In this document: piece after piece, positions 36,212 through 60,446 of the stretch | How the letters are laid out: every line of letters starts with the position of its first letter | Position numbering within the stretch: the first letter of the stretch is position 1 | Assembly (NCBI GenBank): GCA_021738565.1 | Contig: JAIPBT010000011.1 | Coordinates: forward strand, 1 to 64,000 | DNA length: 64,000 nucleotides | Direction of reading: 5' to 3' | Source: Bacteroidales bacterium | GTDB lineage: Bacteria; Bacteroidota; Bacteroidia; Bacteroidales; GCA-2748055 | Translations under genes and position numbers: made by a program | Notes under the pieces: model-generated | Seen by the model: the letters and a program-made list of their open reading frames with translations, nothing else | Database searches by the model: none | What the model was told of the DNA's origin: nothing

Positions 36212-37885
36212 TTACCAGCCTGGATTTTGTTTTAGCAATCCCCTGTTTACGTTGATCTCGGAAAGTGGTATCGGTAAGAACTCATTCTTTCCAACCTGGA
36301 ATACATCCCCGTCATAGATCTCATTCCAGTCGATCGCCCACTGCGGATCAAAACTCCAGCGGATCAGATCGATGTACCGGTGGCCCTCAAATGCAAGTTC
36401 CACATCTCTCTCATGGATGATCGCATCTGTTGTCAGCGCTGCCACCGGAGGCATTTTCACCCTGTCCCGCACTTCGTTGAGCGCACTCAATCCCGAGCCA
36501 TCCGCATCGTTGTCCAGCAGGAGACTGGTTTCGGCATAGAGCAGGTACACATCGGCCAGCCTGATGATGCGGTGATTAAACGGAGCATTGTTTGGCGCAG
36601 CCAGGTCATTGTAGGTCGGGTAGGCATATTTTTTCGGACCGAATCCGATCGATGGCTGGCCCGGCCTTGACAGACCGCGCCCGGATGCAACCCGTTTATT
36701 ATTCAGACCACTTGTATAAAATTTACTGTAGTATTCCTCTTCGGGAACAAAATGCAGCCGGTCACCATCGAGGTACAATGAAGCAAACGTCCTTGGGTCT
36801 TTGACAAACCCGGCCGGGTGACCGGTCACCTCCTCAAACGCATAATACATATCAGGATGTGCCTCGTGGTTCTTGAAGCTGCTCTCGTGGTGGTAGAACC
36901 ACTGGAAATTCATGTTACCCGACCACTGCCATCCGGGCAGCCAGCCTTCATTGATCCGCTTATCGGTATACTGCACTTCCCATACCGATTCGCTGTTGTT
37001 CTCTGATGGATAGAACGAACCGTCACTGGCAGGCAGATCCATGTATGAGGTGTTGCACAAAACAGCATTGATATAATCCACCCTTTCGTCGGCCTTTGGG
37101 AGTATCAGCGCATACGCCGGGCTCTCCATGACCTCTTTCAGCATCGTTTTAGCCAGTTCCAGGTCGGTATTGATCTCCGCCTGTCCGGAGCCCATTCTCA
37201 GGTGGTAGTAATAGTATTTGTACAGCATGGCTTTCCCGAGGAGGGCTTTCGCCGCCCCACTTGTGATCCTTCCCACATCATTGTCGGGATAGCTTTCCGG
37301 CAGGATACCGATCGCATATTCCAGGTCCTCAACGATCTTGTTCCAGAACCGGATCCGTTCGCCGTTCGGGTAAGCCTCATACGCATCCACAGGCAGGCTT
37401 GTCTCATCGAAGAAGATCGGCCGGTCAAAAATTGTGACCAGCAGGAAATAGTACATGCTGCGCAGTGCGCGGATCTGGGCCATGTATTGCTCCCTGGTTC
37501 CCTCTTCGAGCCCTTCGATCTCAAGTTCCTGCAGGTTGTACAGGACATGCGAGGTTCGCCAGACCCCCATGTAGAGGTCACGATGCATCCAGGTGACGAA
37601 TTCATTGGAGGAATTGATACTGATATTGTCCATGGCAGCGGTTTCAAAAAGCGTCCTGTCCTCAAATGATCCGAACAGGAAAAACCATCTCAAGCCAAAT
37701 ACTCCGGAATGGGCAAGCGGGGTATAACATGCATTCATGGCATAAAAGGCATCCTCCGGCGTCTTGTAAAATGAGCTCAGTGCAAGCTGGTTTGTGTTTT
37801 CCACTTCGAGCGCATCATCAGTGCATGACGTGATACCTATTGCGCTTGCAATCATGATGGCGATGATATATGTGATCTTTTTCAT
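36212..37885 (-). CDS. RagB/SusD-family surface nutrient-binding lipoprotein
   Basis: A 557-residue lipoprotein (lipobox ITSC, Cys about 21). The start NQLALSSFYKTPEDAFYAMNACY, the TPR-like helices with IRALRSMYYFLLVTIFDRPIFF, and the C-terminal RLADVYLLYAETSLLL...HERDVELAFEGHRYIDLIRW and EFLPIPLSEINVN...QNPGW are diagnostic of SusD. It captures substrate above the SusC barrel on the cell surface. It lies 9 bp after susC. No glycoside hydrolase gene is adjacent, so the substrate could be protein- or glycan-derived. Confidence 0.94.
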   Translation of the reverse strand: MKKITYIIAIMIASAIGITSCTDDALEVENTNQLALSSFYKTPEDAFYAMNACYTPLAHSGVFGLRWFFLFGSFEDRTLFETAAMDNISINSSNEFVTWMHRDLYMGVWRTSHVLYNLQELEIEGLEEGTREQYMAQIRALRSMYYFLLVTIFDRPIFFDETSLPVDAYEAYPNGERIRFWNKIVEDLEYAIGILPESYPDNDVGRITSGAAKALLGKAMLYKYYYYHLRMGSGQAEINTDLELAKTMLKEVMESPAYALILPKADERVDYINAVLCNTSYMDLPASDGSFYPSENNSESVWEVQYTDKRINEGWLPGWQWSGNMNFQWFYHHESSFKNHEAHPDMYYAFEEVTGHPAGFVKDPRTFASLYLDGDRLHFVPEEEYYSKFYTSGLNNKRVASGRGLSRPGQPSIGFGPKKYAYPTYNDLAAPNNAPFNHRIIRLADVYLLYAETSLLLDNDADGSGLSALNEVRDRVKMPPVAALTTDAIIHERDVELAFEGHRYIDLIRWSFDPQWAIDWNEIYDGDVFQVGKNEFLPIPLSEINVNRGLLKQNPGW

Positions 37886-37894
37886 AATGCTGTT

Positions 37895-40800
37895 TTAAAA
37901 ATCAATTTGAATTCCAATGGTGCTTACCCTGGGGTTCGGATAGCCCCCTATATCGGTACCTGAATTTAGCGGGTCGGAGAATACAGCCACTTCGGGATCC
38001 CTCCCGGTGTATTCAGTAAATACATACAGGTTTGAGAAGCTGGCATAGATCCTGAAGTTGTCTATATTGGCAAAACTGATAATATTTCCCGGCAGTGAAT
38101 AGCCCAGCTGAATATCTTTCACCCTTAAAAATGAGCCATCCTCTATCCACCAGGTGGAGATCCGGTCATTGACATTGGTGTTGTTTCTGTCGGCGCGTAC
38201 ATATTCTTCCGACGGGTTGTCTTCCCTGTAGTAGTTTTGCGTGTAATCTGTAAGTTTATTGTGATCCAGATCCTGGGCATTGAAACTTGAAAGCGAAGCT
38301 CTTTCGGCATTGAAAATATCAAAGCCCTGCATGCCGCTCAGGAAAATGAGCAAATCGAAATCCCTGTAGCTCATTTCCATGTTGATCCCGTAGATCATAT
38401 CAGGGATAGGCTTTCCTATCAGCGTCCGGTCATCGGCATCAATCTTGCCGTCGTTGGTGAGGTCTGTGAATTTCAGGTCCCCGGGTGCAGGTGTGCCTTC
38501 AATCGGTTCAGTAAATTGATAATCCCCGTTCTCATCAAAATCCCCCGGTGTAATGATCCTTTCAGCAACATATCCATAAAGTGAACCAATGGGCCATCCT
38601 TCTATGGTGCGGTTGTATCCCTCCCGCGTGGTAATATCTTCTGTAGGAATACTGATCACCTCGTTCTTAATCGTGGTCAGGTTTGCCGTGATCCCGTAAT
38701 ACAACTCCCCGCGGGTTTCCCTGTAAGAAAGCAACAGTTCAAATCCACTGTTGCGAAGCTCACCCACATTCAGCCATGGTTGCGCATCCTCCGAAAAGCC
38801 TGGCTCTGATGCACGTCCGAATACATGCGATACGGGTTTCTTTACCAGCAGGTTGTCCTGGCTCTTGATATAATATTCGACACTGGCCTGGATCTTATTG
38901 TTGAAGAGGTTGGCATCCAGCCCCAGGTTCAGCATGGAGGCCGACTCCCACTGAACGATCGGGTTCGCGAATGAGCTGAGCACATAGGTAGCCACAGCGA
39001 TGTTCTGGTCGTAACCGAAGACCGGGGAGAACTGGGTGGGTGCTGAAAGGAAATCGTCGTACTGGAACCTCCCGATATTTGAGTTGCCGGTCTGTCCCCA
39101 GCCTGCCCTGATCTTGAGCATATTCACCTGGTCGACCTGTGGCAGGAGGTCCTCGTTCAGTTTCCACCCGAGCGAAAAAGACGGAAAGGTACCCCACCTG
39201 TATCCCTCGGCGAACCTGGAGTTGCCATCTGTACGCAACGAAGCTGTGACCAGGTATTTGCCCTTGAAATCATAGATGATCCTGCCCAGGTATGCTATAC
39301 TCTTGTAAGGCCAGATAGCGCCTTCAATCACCTGCCCGTCAGCTGATGCCTGGTCGAATACATTCAGGTTTTCATATGGAAAGCCAACCGCTTTTGGGGT
39401 CGTGACGCTTGTGGTGACATTCCGGTAGTGATGAACTGCCGTGGCTGAGACAGTGTGGTTGCCAAAGCTCCGGTTGAAATTCAGCTGGTTCTGAATAGAG
39501 AGATTCAGTAACTCATTGTATTCCTCCAGCAGTACGGCCTGGGGTTCTGATCTGACACCCATATCATAGGAGGGGGTCCAGTTACGGATCTTCCCGTAGG
39601 TAAAATCAACAGAAGGAAGCACCCTGAATGTCAGCCCCTCGAGCAGTTTCACCTCTGCGTAGATGCTTGCCAGGAAATTGTTGATATACTCATTATTGTC
39701 CGGCAGCATCGCCACCCCCAGGGGATTGAATTTATCATTGTTGCCGGTGGAGGGAAAAGTCTCGCTGTCCGGATCAATGACCCCGTCGCTATCTGCATCA
39801 AATTCAAATCCCTGCTGTGCACCTGCAAATCCGCCCTTATTGTCTTCGTCGTAAACGGCCATCAGCGGACTGGCGGTTTTAACAAGGTTGAAATCAGCCG
39901 CTCCCCTGTGAATATAATTCCTGCTGATGTTCATGGTCTCCCCGATCTTCAGGTGTTTGCCGATTGCAAAATCGGAATTGGCCCTCAGGTTATATCTTTT
40001 GGCATTGTTATTCACCAGCACACCGGTTTCATCATAATAATTGGCAGAGATACTGTAATTGCTTTTTTCAGCTCCCCCGGAGATCCGCAGGTAATGATTC
40101 ATCGTGTAGCCGGGTGTCGTAATCTCATCCTGCCAGTCGGTACCGGATTCCCATCCTTCTCCATAATATGCCTGCCGAAATTCATCCGTATAAGCGATCT
40201 GGTTAATGCCGTCCCTCTCGTTGAGCGTATTGTAGAAATCTGCATACTGGTCGCCATTCATCAGGTCCAACTTCCTTGGAATCTTGTTCTGGCTCATGTA
40301 TGCTGAATAGGTTACCGAGGGAGCTCCGATGGATCCCCTTTTTGTGGTGATGATAATCACTCCGTTCGCACCATCTGCGCCATAAATGGCTGCTGAAGAC
40401 GCATCTTTCAGCACCTGCAGCGATTCTATATCTGCCGGATTGATCCCCTGGATGCTGCTTGTGATCACTCCGTCGATCACGTAGATCGGATCGGCACTCC
40501 TGTTGATCGATCCCACACCGCGCACCCTGATAGATGCAGGGGAACCGGGCTGACCGGAGTTCTGTGTGACCAGGACGCCGGGTGCCTTCCCCTGGATCGC
40601 TGATGTAAAGGTCGCGGTGGGTGTGCGGTTCAGCTCTTCTGAACTTACCACGGCCACTGAACCTGTCAGGTCGTCTTTCTTAACGGTTCCGTAACCGATG
40701 ACCACCACATCTTCAAGTTCGGTAGTAGCCTCCTCCATGCTTACATTGATCTCAGTCCGGTCCCCCACCTGTTCTTCATGTGTTTCATAGCCAATAAATG

Positions 40801-41032
40801 AAAACTGGAGTACATCTCCGGGTCCGGTTACCTCGATGGAATAATGACCGCTGACATCTGTGATGGCACCTCTGGTGGTTCCCTTGATGATGATGGTTGA
40901 TCCGGCGATCGGTTCACCGGTTTCGGCAGATGTGACGTTACCTGTTACAACTTGCTGTGCCATCACGGCATGCGAAAAAAGCACCAGGAACAGAATGAAG
41001 CGAAATCTCATCCCACGTGAGTTAGTTAGCAT
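37895..41032 (-). CDS. SusC/RagA-family TonB-linked outer membrane transporter
   Basis: A 1045-residue barrel transporter. A signal (about 1-25, SHAVMAQ) precedes the carboxypeptidase-like domain (VVTGNVTSAETGEPIAGSTI), the SusC signature VVVIGYGTVKKDDLTGSV, the plug (GKAPGVLVTQNSG...IRVRGVGSINRSADPIYVIDG) and a large barrel ending VSTIGIQIDF. It works with the SusD lipoprotein encoded 9 bp downstream. The start may be ATG 41032 or ATG 41011; both leave a usable signal. A palindromic repeat of the A/B family lies directly upstream. Confidence 0.95.
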   Translation of the reverse strand: MLTNSRGMRFRFILFLVLFSHAVMAQQVVTGNVTSAETGEPIAGSTIIIKGTTRGAITDVSGHYSIEVTGPGDVLQFSFIGYETHEEQVGDRTEINVSMEEATTELEDVVVIGYGTVKKDDLTGSVAVVSSEELNRTPTATFTSAIQGKAPGVLVTQNSGQPGSPASIRVRGVGSINRSADPIYVIDGVITSSIQGINPADIESLQVLKDASSAAIYGADGANGVIIITTKRGSIGAPSVTYSAYMSQNKIPRKLDLMNGDQYADFYNTLNERDGINQIAYTDEFRQAYYGEGWESGTDWQDEITTPGYTMNHYLRISGGAEKSNYSISANYYDETGVLVNNNAKRYNLRANSDFAIGKHLKIGETMNISRNYIHRGAADFNLVKTASPLMAVYDEDNKGGFAGAQQGFEFDADSDGVIDPDSETFPSTGNNDKFNPLGVAMLPDNNEYINNFLASIYAEVKLLEGLTFRVLPSVDFTYGKIRNWTPSYDMGVRSEPQAVLLEEYNELLNLSIQNQLNFNRSFGNHTVSATAVHHYRNVTTSVTTPKAVGFPYENLNVFDQASADGQVIEGAIWPYKSIAYLGRIIYDFKGKYLVTASLRTDGNSRFAEGYRWGTFPSFSLGWKLNEDLLPQVDQVNMLKIRAGWGQTGNSNIGRFQYDDFLSAPTQFSPVFGYDQNIAVATYVLSSFANPIVQWESASMLNLGLDANLFNNKIQASVEYYIKSQDNLLVKKPVSHVFGRASEPGFSEDAQPWLNVGELRNSGFELLLSYRETRGELYYGITANLTTIKNEVISIPTEDITTREGYNRTIEGWPIGSLYGYVAERIITPGDFDENGDYQFTEPIEGTPAPGDLKFTDLTNDGKIDADDRTLIGKPIPDMIYGINMEMSYRDFDLLIFLSGMQGFDIFNAERASLSSFNAQDLDHNKLTDYTQNYYREDNPSEEYVRADRNNTNVNDRISTWWIEDGSFLRVKDIQLGYSLPGNIISFANIDNFRIYASFSNLYVFTEYTGRDPEVAVFSDPLNSGTDIGGYPNPRVSTIGIQIDF

Positions 41033-54821: not shown

Positions 54822-54869
54822 ACTAAACATCAAAAGATTATTGGAATATTAGGGGATAAAATATTAAAT

Positions 54870-54901
54870 TTGTGTAAAATTTACTAAATTACGTAACTTA
54901 T
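54870..54901 (+). promoter_or_regulatory. Candidate promoter of the caspase/SpoIIE operon
   Basis: TTG (54870-54872), 21 bp, then TAACTTAT (54894-54901), two bases off TAnnTTTG, 38 bp before the ATG. It is a weak match, which would suit low or regulated expression. Confidence 0.3.
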
Positions 54902-54939: not shown

Positions 54940-57285
54940 ATGAAAAAGATATTGACATTTTTTCTCGTAAGTATGTTTTCCTTCGGCCTCATATTTGGCC
55001 AGTCAGCCAGGAGGTATTTCAAGACCGGTGAGGATTTTTATGAAGTGAAAAAGTACAAGGATGCCATCGAGCAATTTTCAAAGGCCGTTGAACTCGATCC
55101 CGATTATGATGATGCATACCTTCTGAGGGCTGCATCTTACGAATATCTTGATCAGTATGAAAAGGCTGCGCAGGATTATGAGAGGGCGCTTGTTTTTAAT
55201 GAAAAAGATGAAGAGATACACTACATGGCCGGCAATGCCTATTACATGAGCGGTCAGTATGGTGCAGCATTGTCGAAGCTGAATGATGCACTTGTCAGGA
55301 AATCAAAATACCCTGAGGCTTTGCAGGTCAGGATCAAAGTTTTTCTTGCACTCAAAAGGTATGATGCTGCTCTTGCTGATTGCAAGGCGGCACTGAATAT
55401 GAAACAGGATGAAGTGAATTACTATAACCTGGGGCTTGTCTATGAAAAGCTCGAATTGTATACCGAAGCAGAGGATGCTTACAAGAAGTCAATAGCCATC
55501 AACAGGAATGTTTTGGTATCCCAGCTTGCCCTGGCAAAACTGGCTTACAAGCTTGAGAAATATGACCTTTCAATGGCTGCAGTCAACCAGGCTCTAAGAA
55601 TCAGTGCCCAGCATAAGGAGGGTTTGAAACTAAGGAGTCAGATCTATGCTGCACAGATGAATCTCTCCAAGGCCATCGATGATATTTCCCTTGCTTTGAA
55701 GATGTACCCGGGTGATCCCGAACTACACATTTTACGAGGTGATTTCTATCAGCAGCTCAGCAGGCACTCTGATGCCATCGTTGATTACACCTATGCCTTA
55801 GAAGCTGATACTGCAGCGCCATCCGACCTGTTCTTTAAAAGGGCCAGATCCTATGAATTTGTCAGGAATTATGAAGCAGCAATGGCGGACTATGACAGGT
55901 TGCTTGAGCGCTCAAAATATGACGGAGATGCACAGCGGCTTCTGGCAGAGGCCAAGGAACGCATGTTCGAGATCAACAGGGAGGAGGACGCACCGGTGGT
56001 AAAACTACTTGATCCGGTTTCAAATGAAGACAACAGCATCAATGTTCCCAAGGGAACCGATGTCATCCCCCTGATAGGTTTTATTGAGGATGAAAGCGAG
56101 ATCACGGCGCTGAAGGTGAATGATTTTACCGTTCAGCCAACTGAAGATAAAGAAGGGTATAAGTTCCTTGCGAGTGTTAACCTGAGAAATACGGATGAGA
56201 TTCTTGTGGAGGCCACTGACGTATATAACAACAAGCAGGAGGCGGTGTTCAAGGTGCTCAGGACCGAAACCGAAAGTCCGGAAGTCAGGATCATGACACC
56301 CTATGCTTCTGATAACAATTTGATCTATCTTGATTCAAACGAGCCGGTGATCTATGTTGAAGGGAAGATCAACGATGACAGCCAGATCAAGTCCATTTAC
56401 ATCGATGATGTAATGGCCAGCTATTCTCCGAATTCATTGAACCCGGTGTTCTCTGCCAGGGTCAGGGTGGAGAACAGGAACAGGTTCACGGTCAAGGCCG
56501 AAGATGTTTACGGCAATATTGCCGATGTCGAATTTACCATCGAACGCGAAGTGATGGACATCACGAACAATCCCATGGGAAGGACCTGGGCAATCTTTAT
56601 TGAAAATTCAAACTACGAGGCATTTCCCAGTCTTGAAGGTCCCACAAGAGACATAATGATGATGAAATCGGTTCTTGCAAAATACCAGATTCATAATTAC
56701 ATCCATAAGAAGGATATGTCGAATTCTGATATGAGCCGGTTTTTCCAGATAGAATTAAGGGATCTGCTACGGAGTAACAGGGTTTCTTCGATACTTATCT
56801 GGTATGCAGGTCATGGTAAATTCCAGAACGAGACAGGGTACTGGATCCCGGTTGACGCTGTCAGGGACGATGAATTCACCTATTTCAGCATCAACAACCT
56901 GAAAGCCTACATGCAGTCATATCCGGAAAATGTTACCCACACACTTGTAGTAACCGATGCGTGTGAGTCGGGACCGAGTTTTTACCAGGCCATGCGGTCA
57001 GCAAACGATGCTCCGAGCTGCGATAATTGGGAAGCAACCAGGTTCAAGTCCTCCCAGGTACTTTCATCTGCCGGATATGAGCTTGCCAGCGATGACAGTC
57101 AGTTTACAAGGACATTCGCGAATACATTGGATAACAATCCCGATGCATGTATTCCCATTGAAAGTGTGGTTCAAAAAGTTACTGATGCAGTGACAAGCAA
57201 CAACCAGCAAAAACCGCAGTTTGGTAAGATTGCAGGACTGGAAGATGAGAACGGAACCTTCTTCTTCATACCAAAAGAATATTAA
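54940..57285 (+). CDS. Exported TPR protein with C-terminal caspase-like protease domain
   Basis: A 781-residue protein. A Sec signal (about 1-20, FFLVSMFSFGLIFGQ) is followed by about nine TPR repeats (about 24-335, such as YKDAIEQFSKAVELDPDYDDAYLLRAASYEYL), two beta-rich Ig-like modules (about 350-450 and 455-545, with IPLIGFIEDESEITALKV and VIYVEGKINDDSQIKSIYIDD) and a peptidase C14-like domain (about 555-781). The catalytic dyad is intact: His625 in WYAGHGKF and Cys675 in DACESG. Caspase-like bacterial proteins cut after basic or acidic residues in signalling and defence. The export signal points to the periplasm. It sits two bases upstream of the propeller-SpoIIE gene. Confidence 0.88.
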   Translation: MKKILTFFLVSMFSFGLIFGQSARRYFKTGEDFYEVKKYKDAIEQFSKAVELDPDYDDAYLLRAASYEYLDQYEKAAQDYERALVFNEKDEEIHYMAGNAYYMSGQYGAALSKLNDALVRKSKYPEALQVRIKVFLALKRYDAALADCKAALNMKQDEVNYYNLGLVYEKLELYTEAEDAYKKSIAINRNVLVSQLALAKLAYKLEKYDLSMAAVNQALRISAQHKEGLKLRSQIYAAQMNLSKAIDDISLALKMYPGDPELHILRGDFYQQLSRHSDAIVDYTYALEADTAAPSDLFFKRARSYEFVRNYEAAMADYDRLLERSKYDGDAQRLLAEAKERMFEINREEDAPVVKLLDPVSNEDNSINVPKGTDVIPLIGFIEDESEITALKVNDFTVQPTEDKEGYKFLASVNLRNTDEILVEATDVYNNKQEAVFKVLRTETESPEVRIMTPYASDNNLIYLDSNEPVIYVEGKINDDSQIKSIYIDDVMASYSPNSLNPVFSARVRVENRNRFTVKAEDVYGNIADVEFTIEREVMDITNNPMGRTWAIFIENSNYEAFPSLEGPTRDIMMMKSVLAKYQIHNYIHKKDMSNSDMSRFFQIELRDLLRSNRVSSILIWYAGHGKFQNETGYWIPVDAVRDDEFTYFSINNLKAYMQSYPENVTHTLVVTDACESGPSFYQAMRSANDAPSCDNWEATRFKSSQVLSSAGYELASDDSQFTRTFANTLDNNPDACIPIESVVQKVTDAVTSNNQQKPQFGKIAGLEDENGTFFFIPKEY

Positions 57286-57287
57286 AT

Positions 57288-60200
57288 ATGACCAATAAGC
57301 GTTTTGAAAAAATTATTCGTCTTTGCGGACGAATAATTTTTTTTTATCTACTGACCCTTCAGGTACCGGTTAAAGCTCAGCAGTATTATTTTGATAATTA
57401 TAGTATTGCAGAGGGACTTGCACAATCAAAAGTTTATTCCATTATTCAGGATAGCGAAGACAATTTCTGGCTGGGGACGCAGGCCGGAGTTTCCTGGTTT
57501 GACGGGGTTGAATTTCAAAACCTTACTGCAGAAGACGGTTTGGCTCAGGGAGGTGTCAGGGCAATCATTGAAGACAGTCACGGAGCCATATGGATGGGAC
57601 ACGAAGGGGGAAGGGTCACGCGGTACAGGAACAATGGTTTTGAAATATTCAAGGCAATAGAAGATGACATTAATAATGTAGTGACTTCCATTGTTGAGGA
57701 TACAGAAGGAAACCTCTGGATCACATCAGAGGGATCAGGTGCGGCAATGATAAAAAATCCCGAGGCACAAATCGATTCCCTTCATTATGAAATGTTTTTG
57801 GGCAGAAGGTTGTCGGACAGGATCTTTGGAAATCTTCTTACAGAGGACGGAACGCTTTACTTAATAACGGATGTTGGTGTAAAATTCTTTAACAGCGACA
57901 GCATGAGGTTTGAGAATTTTTCCGTCAACAACATGCCCCGGTATTTTGCCACCACAACAATTTTCAAGGACTCTGAGAATAATTTCTGGTTCGGTACCTA
58001 CAAAGGCGGATTGTACAAGTATGATCCCCTTGTTGATGATACAAAAATGTATGACCTGATTCAACTTGGCATGACGACCAACTGGGTAAGTGCATTGTTT
58101 GAAGACCGTTACGGAAACATCTGGATAGGTACCTATGGCGGGGGAGTTGGAAGGCTGGACACCGAAGACAATCTGACCGTTTTTGATAACAGGAACGGGA
58201 TGCCGGGAAGCAAGATATGGAACATCATGGAAGACCGGGAGGGAAACATAGTTATTGGTACCAGTGAACACGGAATGTGCGCTTTCAAAGGGGATTATTT
58301 TATTTCATGGTTTGAGAATGACGGGCTGGTAAATTCCCAGGTCTGGGCCATTGCTCAGGATGATGACCGGAATTACTGGATGGGCACCAACGCAGGTATT
58401 TCCATCATGGAGGATCCAATGGAGCCGGGTTCTGTAAAAACCCTCAACAGATACCAGGACAAACAGGTTCGCTTCATTGAGAAAGATCACAACGGCAATA
58501 TCTGGATTGCAATTGAGGGAGAAGGGCTTTTCACCTACCTGAAAAACGGTCGGTATTACTTTGAGCCCAGGATCAATACATACATTTCCCTGAATACCGT
58601 TACCGCGCTCTGTGTTGACGGTCTCAATAATCTCTGGGTGGGAACATTAGATGGTCTGTTATATTACGAAATTGACAACCGTCAGATGAATTTCATCACT
58701 CAGATAACCGGTCTCAGCGGAAACAGTATTTCAGCTCTGTTTCCCGACAGTAAGAACAGGATATGGGTTGGCATCCAGGGAAAGGGGATCAACTTTATCG
58801 AAGGAACCGAATTTAACACTCCCGATTTGGGAATTGCTTTCACGCCGACCTGTTTTACAGAAGACGACAACGGGATCATCTGGATCGGAACTGAAGGCCG
58901 GGGGGTCATTGCATATGACCCGGAAAAAGATACGATAATTGATCAACTTACGGTGGATGATGGTTTGCTGGCCAACCTGATCAACCTGCTGAACTATGAC
59001 AATAACAACAACATATACATTGGAACTAACAAGGGTCTGAACAAATATGACCGGGCAGCGGATAAGATCTTCGGATTCACAAAGAAAAGTGGTTTTGTAG
59101 GTATTGAAACCAAGAAAAATGCCACCTATCTTGACCATGAGGGCAACATCTGGTTTGGAACCGGTAACGGTGTGACAAGGTACAATCCATCATTAAAGCC
59201 ACGGGATGTTATGGAACCTCTGACGCATATCACAGGGCTGAAGGTTAATTATGAAACCTACCCCATGGAAGAGGGCATGAAATTATCTTACCGCCAGAAT
59301 TCACTGATCTTTGATTACCGGTGCATTACCCTGAACCCGGAAGCAGTAAAATACCAGATCATGCTTGAGGGGATTGACAGTGATTGGCGGCCATCGAGTG
59401 ATCAGACACAGGTCAACTATCCGGCATTGCCCCCCAGGAAATATACTTTCTATGTAAAGGCCAAAAACTCCGATGGTGTATGGAATGATCCGCCTGTTTC
59501 CCTGAGTTTTCAGATCAAGCCGCCATTCTACAAAACATGGTACTTTATTCTTTCATGTATAGTTGCGTTGGGATTTATCATTTTCACTTATATCAAGGTA
59601 AGAGAGAGGGCCCTTGTACGGGAAAACAGGATACTGGAGGATAAAGTGCGTTTAAGGACGCAGGAGGTGGTGGCCCAGAAGGAAGAACTTGCGCAAAAGA
59701 ACAAGGACATAACCGACAGTATCAAGTATGCGAAAAGAATTCAGTTTGCTATACTGCCGCCAATTTCACCTTTTCCGGATACATTCATACTGTTCAAACC
59801 AAAAGACATCGTCAGTGGTGACTTTTACTGGTTTACTGATGTGGAAGGAAAGGAATTTATTGCGGCAGTTGACTGTACGGGGCATGGTGTCCCGGGAGCT
59901 CTTATGTCGATCATTGGACACAATTCCCTGAATAAAATTGTCAACCAGTACGGTATTATGGAACCCGGTAAGATCCTTACGGAGCTAAACAGGGAAGTTG
60001 TCGAAACCCTTCACCATACTTCAGAGGACGGAGAGGTAAATGACGGCATGGACCTGTCGCTTATTTCATTTAACAGGGAGGAGCAGGCGTTGGAATATGC
60101 CGGTGCGTATAATTCAATTTACCTTGTCAGGGACGGTGAGTTGATCGAATACAAAGCCGACAGGCAGCCTATCGGCCGTTCGGCGGGTAAGAACAAGGTT

Positions 60201-60446
60201 TTCAACACTCAAAAGATCGGTATCCGAAAAGAAGATATGGTCTATATGTTCTCAGACGGATATGCCGACCAGTTTGGCGGGGAGAAATTGAAAAAATTCA
60301 AATCAAAGAACATGAAGGAACTCATGGTCAGCATCTCAAATGAAAAAGTCGACAGCCAGAGGAAGATCCTTGATAATTCCATTGAAAAATGGCGCGGAGA
60401 TGTGGAACAAATAGATGATATCCTTGTTATTGGCCGGAAGTTCTGA
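57288..60446 (+). CDS. Propeller-Y_Y_Y sensor fused to SpoIIE-type phosphatase
   Basis: A 1052-residue membrane sensor. A signal (about 1-31) precedes about 14 Reg_prop blades (about 35-640, each with a W.G..GGG.Y.Y core, such as GNIWIGTYGGGVGRLD), so two seven-blade propellers; then a Y_Y_Y domain (about 665-742), one membrane helix (about 750-772, YFILSCIVALGFIIFTYI), a coiled coil (about 775-808) and a PP2C-type SpoIIE domain (about 809-1052) with GDFYWF, VDCTGHGVPGALMS, GMDLSLISF and DDILVIG. The propeller is outside and the phosphatase inside. It is translationally close to the caspase gene; its 3' end overlaps the convergent LOG gene by 20 bp. The downstream target is not in the window. 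Confidence 0.92.
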   Translation: MTNKRFEKIIRLCGRIIFFYLLTLQVPVKAQQYYFDNYSIAEGLAQSKVYSIIQDSEDNFWLGTQAGVSWFDGVEFQNLTAEDGLAQGGVRAIIEDSHGAIWMGHEGGRVTRYRNNGFEIFKAIEDDINNVVTSIVEDTEGNLWITSEGSGAAMIKNPEAQIDSLHYEMFLGRRLSDRIFGNLLTEDGTLYLITDVGVKFFNSDSMRFENFSVNNMPRYFATTTIFKDSENNFWFGTYKGGLYKYDPLVDDTKMYDLIQLGMTTNWVSALFEDRYGNIWIGTYGGGVGRLDTEDNLTVFDNRNGMPGSKIWNIMEDREGNIVIGTSEHGMCAFKGDYFISWFENDGLVNSQVWAIAQDDDRNYWMGTNAGISIMEDPMEPGSVKTLNRYQDKQVRFIEKDHNGNIWIAIEGEGLFTYLKNGRYYFEPRINTYISLNTVTALCVDGLNNLWVGTLDGLLYYEIDNRQMNFITQITGLSGNSISALFPDSKNRIWVGIQGKGINFIEGTEFNTPDLGIAFTPTCFTEDDNGIIWIGTEGRGVIAYDPEKDTIIDQLTVDDGLLANLINLLNYDNNNNIYIGTNKGLNKYDRAADKIFGFTKKSGFVGIETKKNATYLDHEGNIWFGTGNGVTRYNPSLKPRDVMEPLTHITGLKVNYETYPMEEGMKLSYRQNSLIFDYRCITLNPEAVKYQIMLEGIDSDWRPSSDQTQVNYPALPPRKYTFYVKAKNSDGVWNDPPVSLSFQIKPPFYKTWYFILSCIVALGFIIFTYIKVRERALVRENRILEDKVRLRTQEVVAQKEELAQKNKDITDSIKYAKRIQFAILPPISPFPDTFILFKPKDIVSGDFYWFTDVEGKEFIAAVDCTGHGVPGALMSIIGHNSLNKIVNQYGIMEPGKILTELNREVVETLHHTSEDGEVNDGMDLSLISFNREEQALEYAGAYNSIYLVRDGELIEYKADRQPIGRSAGKNKVFNTQKIGIRKEDMVYMFSDGYADQFGGEKLKKFKSKNMKELMVSISNEKVDSQRKILDNSIEKWRGDVEQIDDILVIGRKF

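Follow-up and report, generated by a model that had tools for sequence, protein, structure and literature searches.

A conserved gene pair of Bacteroidota joining an exported caspase-like protein to a propeller phosphatase of the SiaA type: a possible signalling unit

The locus and its two genes

The window analysed here is a 64,000-nt stretch of contig JAIPBT010000011.1 from a Bacteroidales bacterium (GCA-2748055), and gene coordinates refer to it. Two open reading frames (ORFs) on its forward strand, two bases apart, encode a caspase-like protein with tetratricopeptide (TPR) and Ig-like regions (gene 1) and a propeller sensor that ends in a phosphatase domain (gene 2). This architecture and spacing were recovered as given in a preliminary description of the same DNA. 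Comparative data presented below strongly support a functional link between the caspase and the propeller phosphatase.

54940..57285, + strand: TPR / Ig-like / caspase (C14, paracaspase-like) protein, predicted to be exported, 781 amino acids (aa); gene 1
54940..55002, + strand: predicted signal peptide, residues 1 to ~20, with Gln21 as predicted mature N-terminus (sequence)
55006..55974, + strand: TPR superhelix, residues ~23–345 (Pfam TPR, model helices, Foldseek TPR matches)
55996..56547, + strand: two Ig-like beta domains, residues ~353–536 (strands in the model)
56566..57282, + strand: caspase domain, residues ~543–781 (NCBIfam, phmmer, invariant residues)
56812–56814, + strand: catalytic His625
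56962–56964, + strand: catalytic Cys675

Gene 1 had been read as a signal-peptide TPR/Ig-like/caspase protein with an intact His625–Cys675 dyad. The domains were found, the Ig-like region having no match in Pfam, and both dyad residues are invariant in 40 relatives and are also kept in genomes that have the caspase only. The same 40 relatives share the S1-type acids Asp571 and Asp673, the latter located two residues before Cys675. Cys694 and Cys737 are likewise invariant, and one may guess that they form a disulphide in an oxidising compartment.

As judged from its sequence, the protease domain is a C14 caspase, similar to paracaspases and orthocaspases, rather than a CHAT protease. It matches the NCBIfam model caspase_w_EACC1 (E=6e-12, under the cut-off of that model) and, by phmmer, MALT1 (E=4e-4), and its close single-domain relatives exceed the Pfam Peptidase_C14 cut-off; no match to a CHAT domain was obtained for gene 1 in Pfam or NCBIfam. 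Foldseek run with the whole protein returned only TPR matches and is thus uninformative on the protease fold. Asp residues of MALT1 have known roles in the S1 pocket and in paracaspase specificity. Since Asp571 aligns with the MALT1 Asp of the corresponding motif, this background, together with the orthocaspase literature (PMC6426788), points to probable cleavage after Arg or Lys.

57288..60446, + strand: propeller / Y_Y_Y / transmembrane / SiaA-type PP2C phosphatase, 1052 aa; gene 2
57288..57377, + strand: predicted signal peptide, residues 1–30, followed by Gln31 (sequence)
57390..59184, + strand: periplasmic double propeller, BT4663-type, residues ~35–632 (Reg_prop, Foldseek)
59223..59516, + strand: Y_Y_Y Ig-like domain, residues ~646–743 (Pfam Y_Y_Y, model)
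59538..59753, + strand: transmembrane helix, residues ~752–774, and helical linker to residue 822 (model, hydrophobicity, positive-inside residues)
59780..60443, + strand: SiaA-type PP2C/SpoIIE phosphatase domain (Pfam SpoIIE, NCBIfam SiaA, PDB 6k4e)

For gene 2, Pfam reports 11 Reg_prop stretches, Y_Y_Y and SpoIIE, and neither a histidine kinase nor a response regulator. In the AlphaFold model (mean pLDDT 87), the membrane segment and linker form helices 751–786 and 794–822, and the periplasmic part matches the two-propeller fold of the hybrid two-component system (HTCS) BT4663 (4a2m; Foldseek TMt 0.80). Domain matches and model thus agree with the initial reading of a propeller, a Y_Y_Y domain, one membrane helix and SpoIIE in the place of the kinase. 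The 14 blades proposed for the propeller are consistent with the modelled fold match.

The phosphatase domain belongs to the SiaA subgroup. NCBIfam SiaA scores 187 bits over residues 781–1049, compared with a full-length cut-off of 700 for that model; the sole convincing sequence relative in PDB is SiaA-PP2C (6k4e, E=6e-36), which is also a structural match (Foldseek TMt 0.89). The PP2C acids Asp845, Asp862, Asp919, Asp922, Asp990, Asp994, Asp1043 and Asp1044 are invariant in 35 relatives. Given the SiaA-like domain, the expected substrate is SiaC and not an ordinary anti-anti-sigma factor.

From their N-termini, both proteins are predicted to be exported, in agreement with the earlier suggestion that caspase and propeller share the periplasm: each signal peptide is followed by a Gln, invariant across 40 relatives for gene 1 (Gln21) and across 35 for gene 2 (Gln31). 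In Bacteroidetes, Gln follows the signal peptide in up to 80% of signal-peptide proteins per species (PMC7948796). Some relatives of gene 1 (L165, L169, L173) carry a lipobox-like Cys in place of the Gln, which likewise indicates export.

Conservation of the gene pair

The named-genome scan yielded 253 stretches encoding relatives of gene 1, and the best 80 of them, nearly all from Bacteroidota lineages, were examined. The propeller phosphatase lies directly downstream in 69 of the 77 assessable loci. The pair is present in a cultured relative, Plebeiobacterium marinum D04 (L191). The preliminary description had made its proposal of a joint system hang on such adjacency in related genomes, and the adjacency is conserved.

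Co-occurrence was assessed in a sample of 393 genomes from the order. The caspase was found in 47 of them, the propeller phosphatase in 41 and both in 40 (Fisher p ~3e-46, not corrected for relatedness). Direct coordinates gave 35 adjacent pairs. Inspection of the exceptions added G518, G551, G784 and G795, where the phosphatase gene is split or has diverged further, or the contig ends. It also added G458 and G462, in which the phosphatase neighbour is a signal-peptide caspase of only 261–263 aa with no TPR or Ig part; hence, what the linked pairs have in common is a caspase domain together with a propeller phosphatase. G458 was at one point a candidate for a genome with the propeller protein only, rejected when the short caspase was seen to adjoin it. 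Overall, of 40 propeller phosphatases that could be assessed, 38 adjoin a caspase gene; the two exceptions, in G455 and G457, are located away from caspase genes, and each of these genomes encodes the caspase elsewhere. No propeller phosphatase without any caspase gene was found among the 393 genomes.

Within the family as defined in GTDB (28 genomes), the order ribD – caspase – propeller phosphatase – (LOG) – trx – dnaE is conserved. Seven genomes (G001, G005, G009, G010, G011, G014, G015) keep the caspase with no adjoining phosphatase, and the caspase without the phosphatase gene recurs at this same site. Such an asymmetry, with the caspase alone and never the reverse, is expected if the phosphatase depends on the caspase. 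In G026, a genome of the same genus that is 99% complete, neither gene is present, and LOG-trx-dnaE comes immediately after ribD.

The evolutionary distances of the two proteins are also correlated. After removal of the signal of ribD and prmC, the residual correlation between caspase and phosphatase is 0.55 (0 of 2000 permutations). A phylum-wide sample of 395 genomes, with two candidates scored per genome, contained no caspase relative at E<=1e-60 outside the source genome, which shows only that close relatives are patchily distributed.

The joint signalling system of the preliminary description is thus supported: the two genes adjoin well beyond what local synteny explains, they occur together and are missing together, and each protein has a predicted signal peptide.

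The pair is at times accompanied by further genes. In five loci (L138, L141, L147, L153, L154), a signal-peptide caspase gene of 258–270 aa is located directly 5' of the TPR-caspase, and in L119/L082 the TPR-caspase itself is in tandem duplicate. In one locus (L176:11426-16450), there is a second phosphatase after the pair, a protein of 611 aa that combines SpoIIE with a solute-binding domain (SBP_bac_3).

Other caspase-phosphatase couplings

Two further caspase subfamilies of the same family of genomes, with other N-terminal parts, also adjoin propeller-SpoIIE genes (L094/L095 and L096/L097), and G555:C1 is a further likely case. A general coupling of bacterial caspases to SpoIIE was considered and rejected, as the majority of the other C14 genes in 8 genomes are not flanked by SpoIIE; the coupling is thus a property of certain lineages and not of caspases in general.

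SiaB, SiaC and the output

In Pseudomonas aeruginosa, phosphorylation of SiaC at Thr68 is set by SiaA and SiaB, and phosphorylated SiaC cannot bind SiaD (PMC7647112, PMC8457831). The source genome encodes 5 SiaC loci, 4 SiaB loci and 12 SpoIIE proteins, with two siaB-siaC pairs. In 4 genomes of f104 and 2 of f75, both of them other GTDB families, the gene order is caspase, propeller phosphatase, siaB, siaC. All six operon-linked SiaC proteins carry YFNTSSSK around the Thr equivalent to T68 of P. aeruginosa, and the operon-linked SiaB proteins retain the ATP-site motifs. In the source genome, the acceptor is Thr in 3 of the 5 SiaC proteins and Ser in 2.

Classical sigma-factor partner switching of the RsbU/SpoIIE kind has accordingly been replaced by the SiaA type, to which the NCBIfam, PDB and Foldseek matches all point. 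The earlier proposal of a phosphatase acting on anti-anti-sigma factors is not borne out: the domain is SiaA-type, its relatives are encoded beside SiaB and SiaC, and the ORFs flanking the pair in the window include no recognised STAS or anti-sigma gene. The source genome, 98.5% complete, gave no match to GGDEF, and the P. aeruginosa output SiaD is therefore absent here.

Several neighbouring genes of the Sia components were recorded. The Ser-type SiaC proteins (L201:7808-8185 and L203:7933-8307) have INSGSSK and LNSGTSK at the acceptor site, and the latter gene is close to that of a Y_Y_Y/SpoIIE protein (L203:3826-7179). Both siaB-siaC pairs of the source genome (L199:6968-11111 and L200:7456-11449; G000:C13 and C9) adjoin genes for ABC-2 transporter proteins of ~1000 aa (ABC_tran + ABC2_membrane), all three genes being on one strand in L200; these transporters are a possible target of SiaC. 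In f104, siaC is followed by a gene of 174–188 aa with no known family (L286:10479-11003, L287:4374-4898, L288:4884-5414, L289:5208-5774), whose product may be a regulator or the target of SiaC itself.

Proposed mechanism

We propose that the caspase and the propeller phosphatase constitute one signalling unit, in which the periplasmic caspase, through binding or cleavage, gates a SiaA-type phosphatase that resets SiaC, and we give this reading a probability of roughly 55%. The caspase-like protease would act in the periplasm, where it might cleave the periplasmic part of the propeller sensor, or the ligand or inhibitor of this sensor; alternatively, it might hold or cleave a TPR-bound envelope protein that is read by the sensor. 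Via Y_Y_Y, the one membrane helix and the helical linker that follows it, the change would reach the cytoplasmic PP2C domain. The phosphatase would then dephosphorylate a protein of the SiaC type, a kinase of the SiaB type would rephosphorylate it, and unphosphorylated SiaC would bind its target. We infer that SiaC is the substrate of the phosphatase in the source genome and that the caspase targets the sensor or works through it, the direction being from caspase to phosphatase. Gating of the phosphatase by proteolysis is plausible.

A more specific form of the proposal is put forward tentatively, at somewhat less than even odds: the pair would represent a new class of transmembrane signalling, in which a periplasmic paracaspase cuts the propeller sensor or its ligand at a basic residue and thereby switches the SiaA-type phosphatase, so that caspase proteolysis is the input of SiaB/SiaC and the output is something other than cyclic di-GMP.

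Several observations weigh against the proposed unit. Gene 1 itself remains below the Pfam Peptidase_C14 cut-off. The caspase has a residual correlation of 0.42 with ribD as well, which means that the mirror-tree signal is not peculiar to the pair, and the SpoIIE trees, built on a short domain, are weakly resolved. Background synteny accounts for some of the adjacency. The caspase occurs alone in 8 of the 77 named loci and in several family genomes, and hence either serves a purpose that does not involve this phosphatase or cooperates with a different SpoIIE protein of the genome. Finally, the SiaB and SiaC genes of the source genome are unlinked to the pair.

Alternative explanations

The best of the alternatives, in our opinion still rather unlikely, is that the two proteins share a function and do not act on each other: both would sense or handle the same envelope substrate under a common promoter with no contact, the propeller reading a ligand and the caspase processing proteins connected with it. 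In Bacteroidota, propeller sensors of the HTCS type are usually encoded beside genes for the sensed material, the caspase is retained in several genomes that lack the phosphatase, and TPR and Ig domains could bind envelope proteins. Such an arrangement is harder to reconcile with the lack of any genome that has the phosphatase and no caspase gene, with the replacement of the TPR-caspase by single-domain caspases, and with the pairing of three caspase subfamilies with propeller-SpoIIE genes.

It is improbable that the caspase is a structural or inhibitory partner that binds the propeller as a ligand, its catalytic site being dispensable for signalling. A TPR scaffold and Ig domains are indeed present, and sensors with PP2C domains are usually triggered by ligand binding and not by proteolysis. 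However, the invariance of His625, Cys675, Asp571 and Asp673, including retention of the dyad where the caspase stands alone, argues for catalysis, and the short partners have no domain other than the protease.

A trivial explanation, that the genes are merely old neighbours in the block ribD – pair – LOG – trx – dnaE with no functional link, has been largely refuted and retains very little probability. The block is conserved in most Bacteroidales relatives, yet 16 of the 69 pairs show none of the block genes ribD/prmC/recX/LOG/trx/dnaE. Some of these contigs are short, and the absence is less informative there; pairs with long flanks outside the block are found in Flavobacteriales and others (L162, L168, L172, L179, L186, L188, L193). 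In G026, conversely, the pair is missing as a unit and the block is intact, so that synteny was rejected as the whole explanation. The coupling is also seen for other caspase subfamilies, at other sites of the genome, and adjacency by chance is estimated at only ~1% per caspase (4–38 SpoIIE matches per genome of ~3,500 genes).

The least credible alternative is a defence or cell-death system, in which the caspase kills or arrests the infected cell and the phosphatase signals: bacterial caspases and CHAT proteases do occur in immune systems, but the defence circuit suggested in the preliminary description finds no support, since PADLOC has 0 families for either protein, the caspase is predicted to be exported and not cytoplasmic, and the genes are vertically inherited across the family in a core housekeeping neighbourhood and not on a mobile island.

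Comparison with known systems

The closest counterpart is SiaABC(D) of P. aeruginosa (PMC7647112, PMC8457831). It shares a membrane sensor with the same PP2C subgroup, and SiaB and SiaC are present in the source genome; it differs in that the sensor here has a BT4663-type propeller, an exported caspase is encoded upstream and no GGDEF/SiaD was found. HTCS proteins such as BT4663 (PDB 4a2m/4a2l) have the same periplasmic double propeller, Y_Y_Y domain and one membrane helix, whereas here a PP2C phosphatase replaces the histidine kinase, the receiver and the AraC output. With paracaspases and orthocaspases (MALT1 and bacterial metacaspases), gene 1 has in common the His-Cys dyad, Asp571 and Asp673, as well as Ig-like domains beside the protease as in MALT1; in contrast to them, it is predicted to be exported, contains TPR and is encoded with a phosphatase sensor. 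TPR-CHAT (Craspase) also combines TPR repeats with a caspase-like protease. The link to it, which had been offered as an analogy, stays one: the domain here is C14, paracaspase-like and exported, with nothing of CHAT recognised.

Envelope proteases that control a cytoplasmic regulator via a membrane protein are familiar from DegS-RseA and SpoIVB. Protease fold, sensor and output differ from those of the present pair, and the likeness drawn here is one of layout.

A survey of prokaryotic caspases and their operons published in 2012 does not mention SpoIIE (PMC3501461), and among the papers available for searching, none was found that ties a caspase to SpoIIE or SiaA signalling. Although bacteria commonly encode caspase homologues, little is known for most of them about physiological input or output. 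In the present case, an operon structure conserved over dozens of Bacteroidota genomes connects one such homologue with a defined phosphatase signalling module. If the proposal is true, an exported bacterial caspase gains a testable signalling role beyond cell death and defence, and the SiaABC switch gains a proteolytic input. It would further hint at the inputs of some of the numerous propeller-SpoIIE proteins in Bacteroidota. Many uncultured members of the phylum carry the two-gene unit, which suggests that extracytoplasmic proteolysis feeds an intracellular phosphorylation switch in them.

Upstream region and other features of the window

The intergenic region between ribD and the caspase gene (289 bases) contains the -7 pattern of Bacteroidota once, compared with 0.1 occurrences expected. 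On the basis of its sequence, this element is a possible promoter of the caspase-phosphatase unit.

54865..54872, + strand: putative Bacteroidota -7 element TAAATTTG (consensus TAnnTTTG), with TTG 21 bases upstream

Elsewhere in the window, a SusC/RagA receptor gene (852 bits) with an adjoining SusD-like gene lies at 36212–41032 on the reverse strand and may represent a polysaccharide-utilisation locus.

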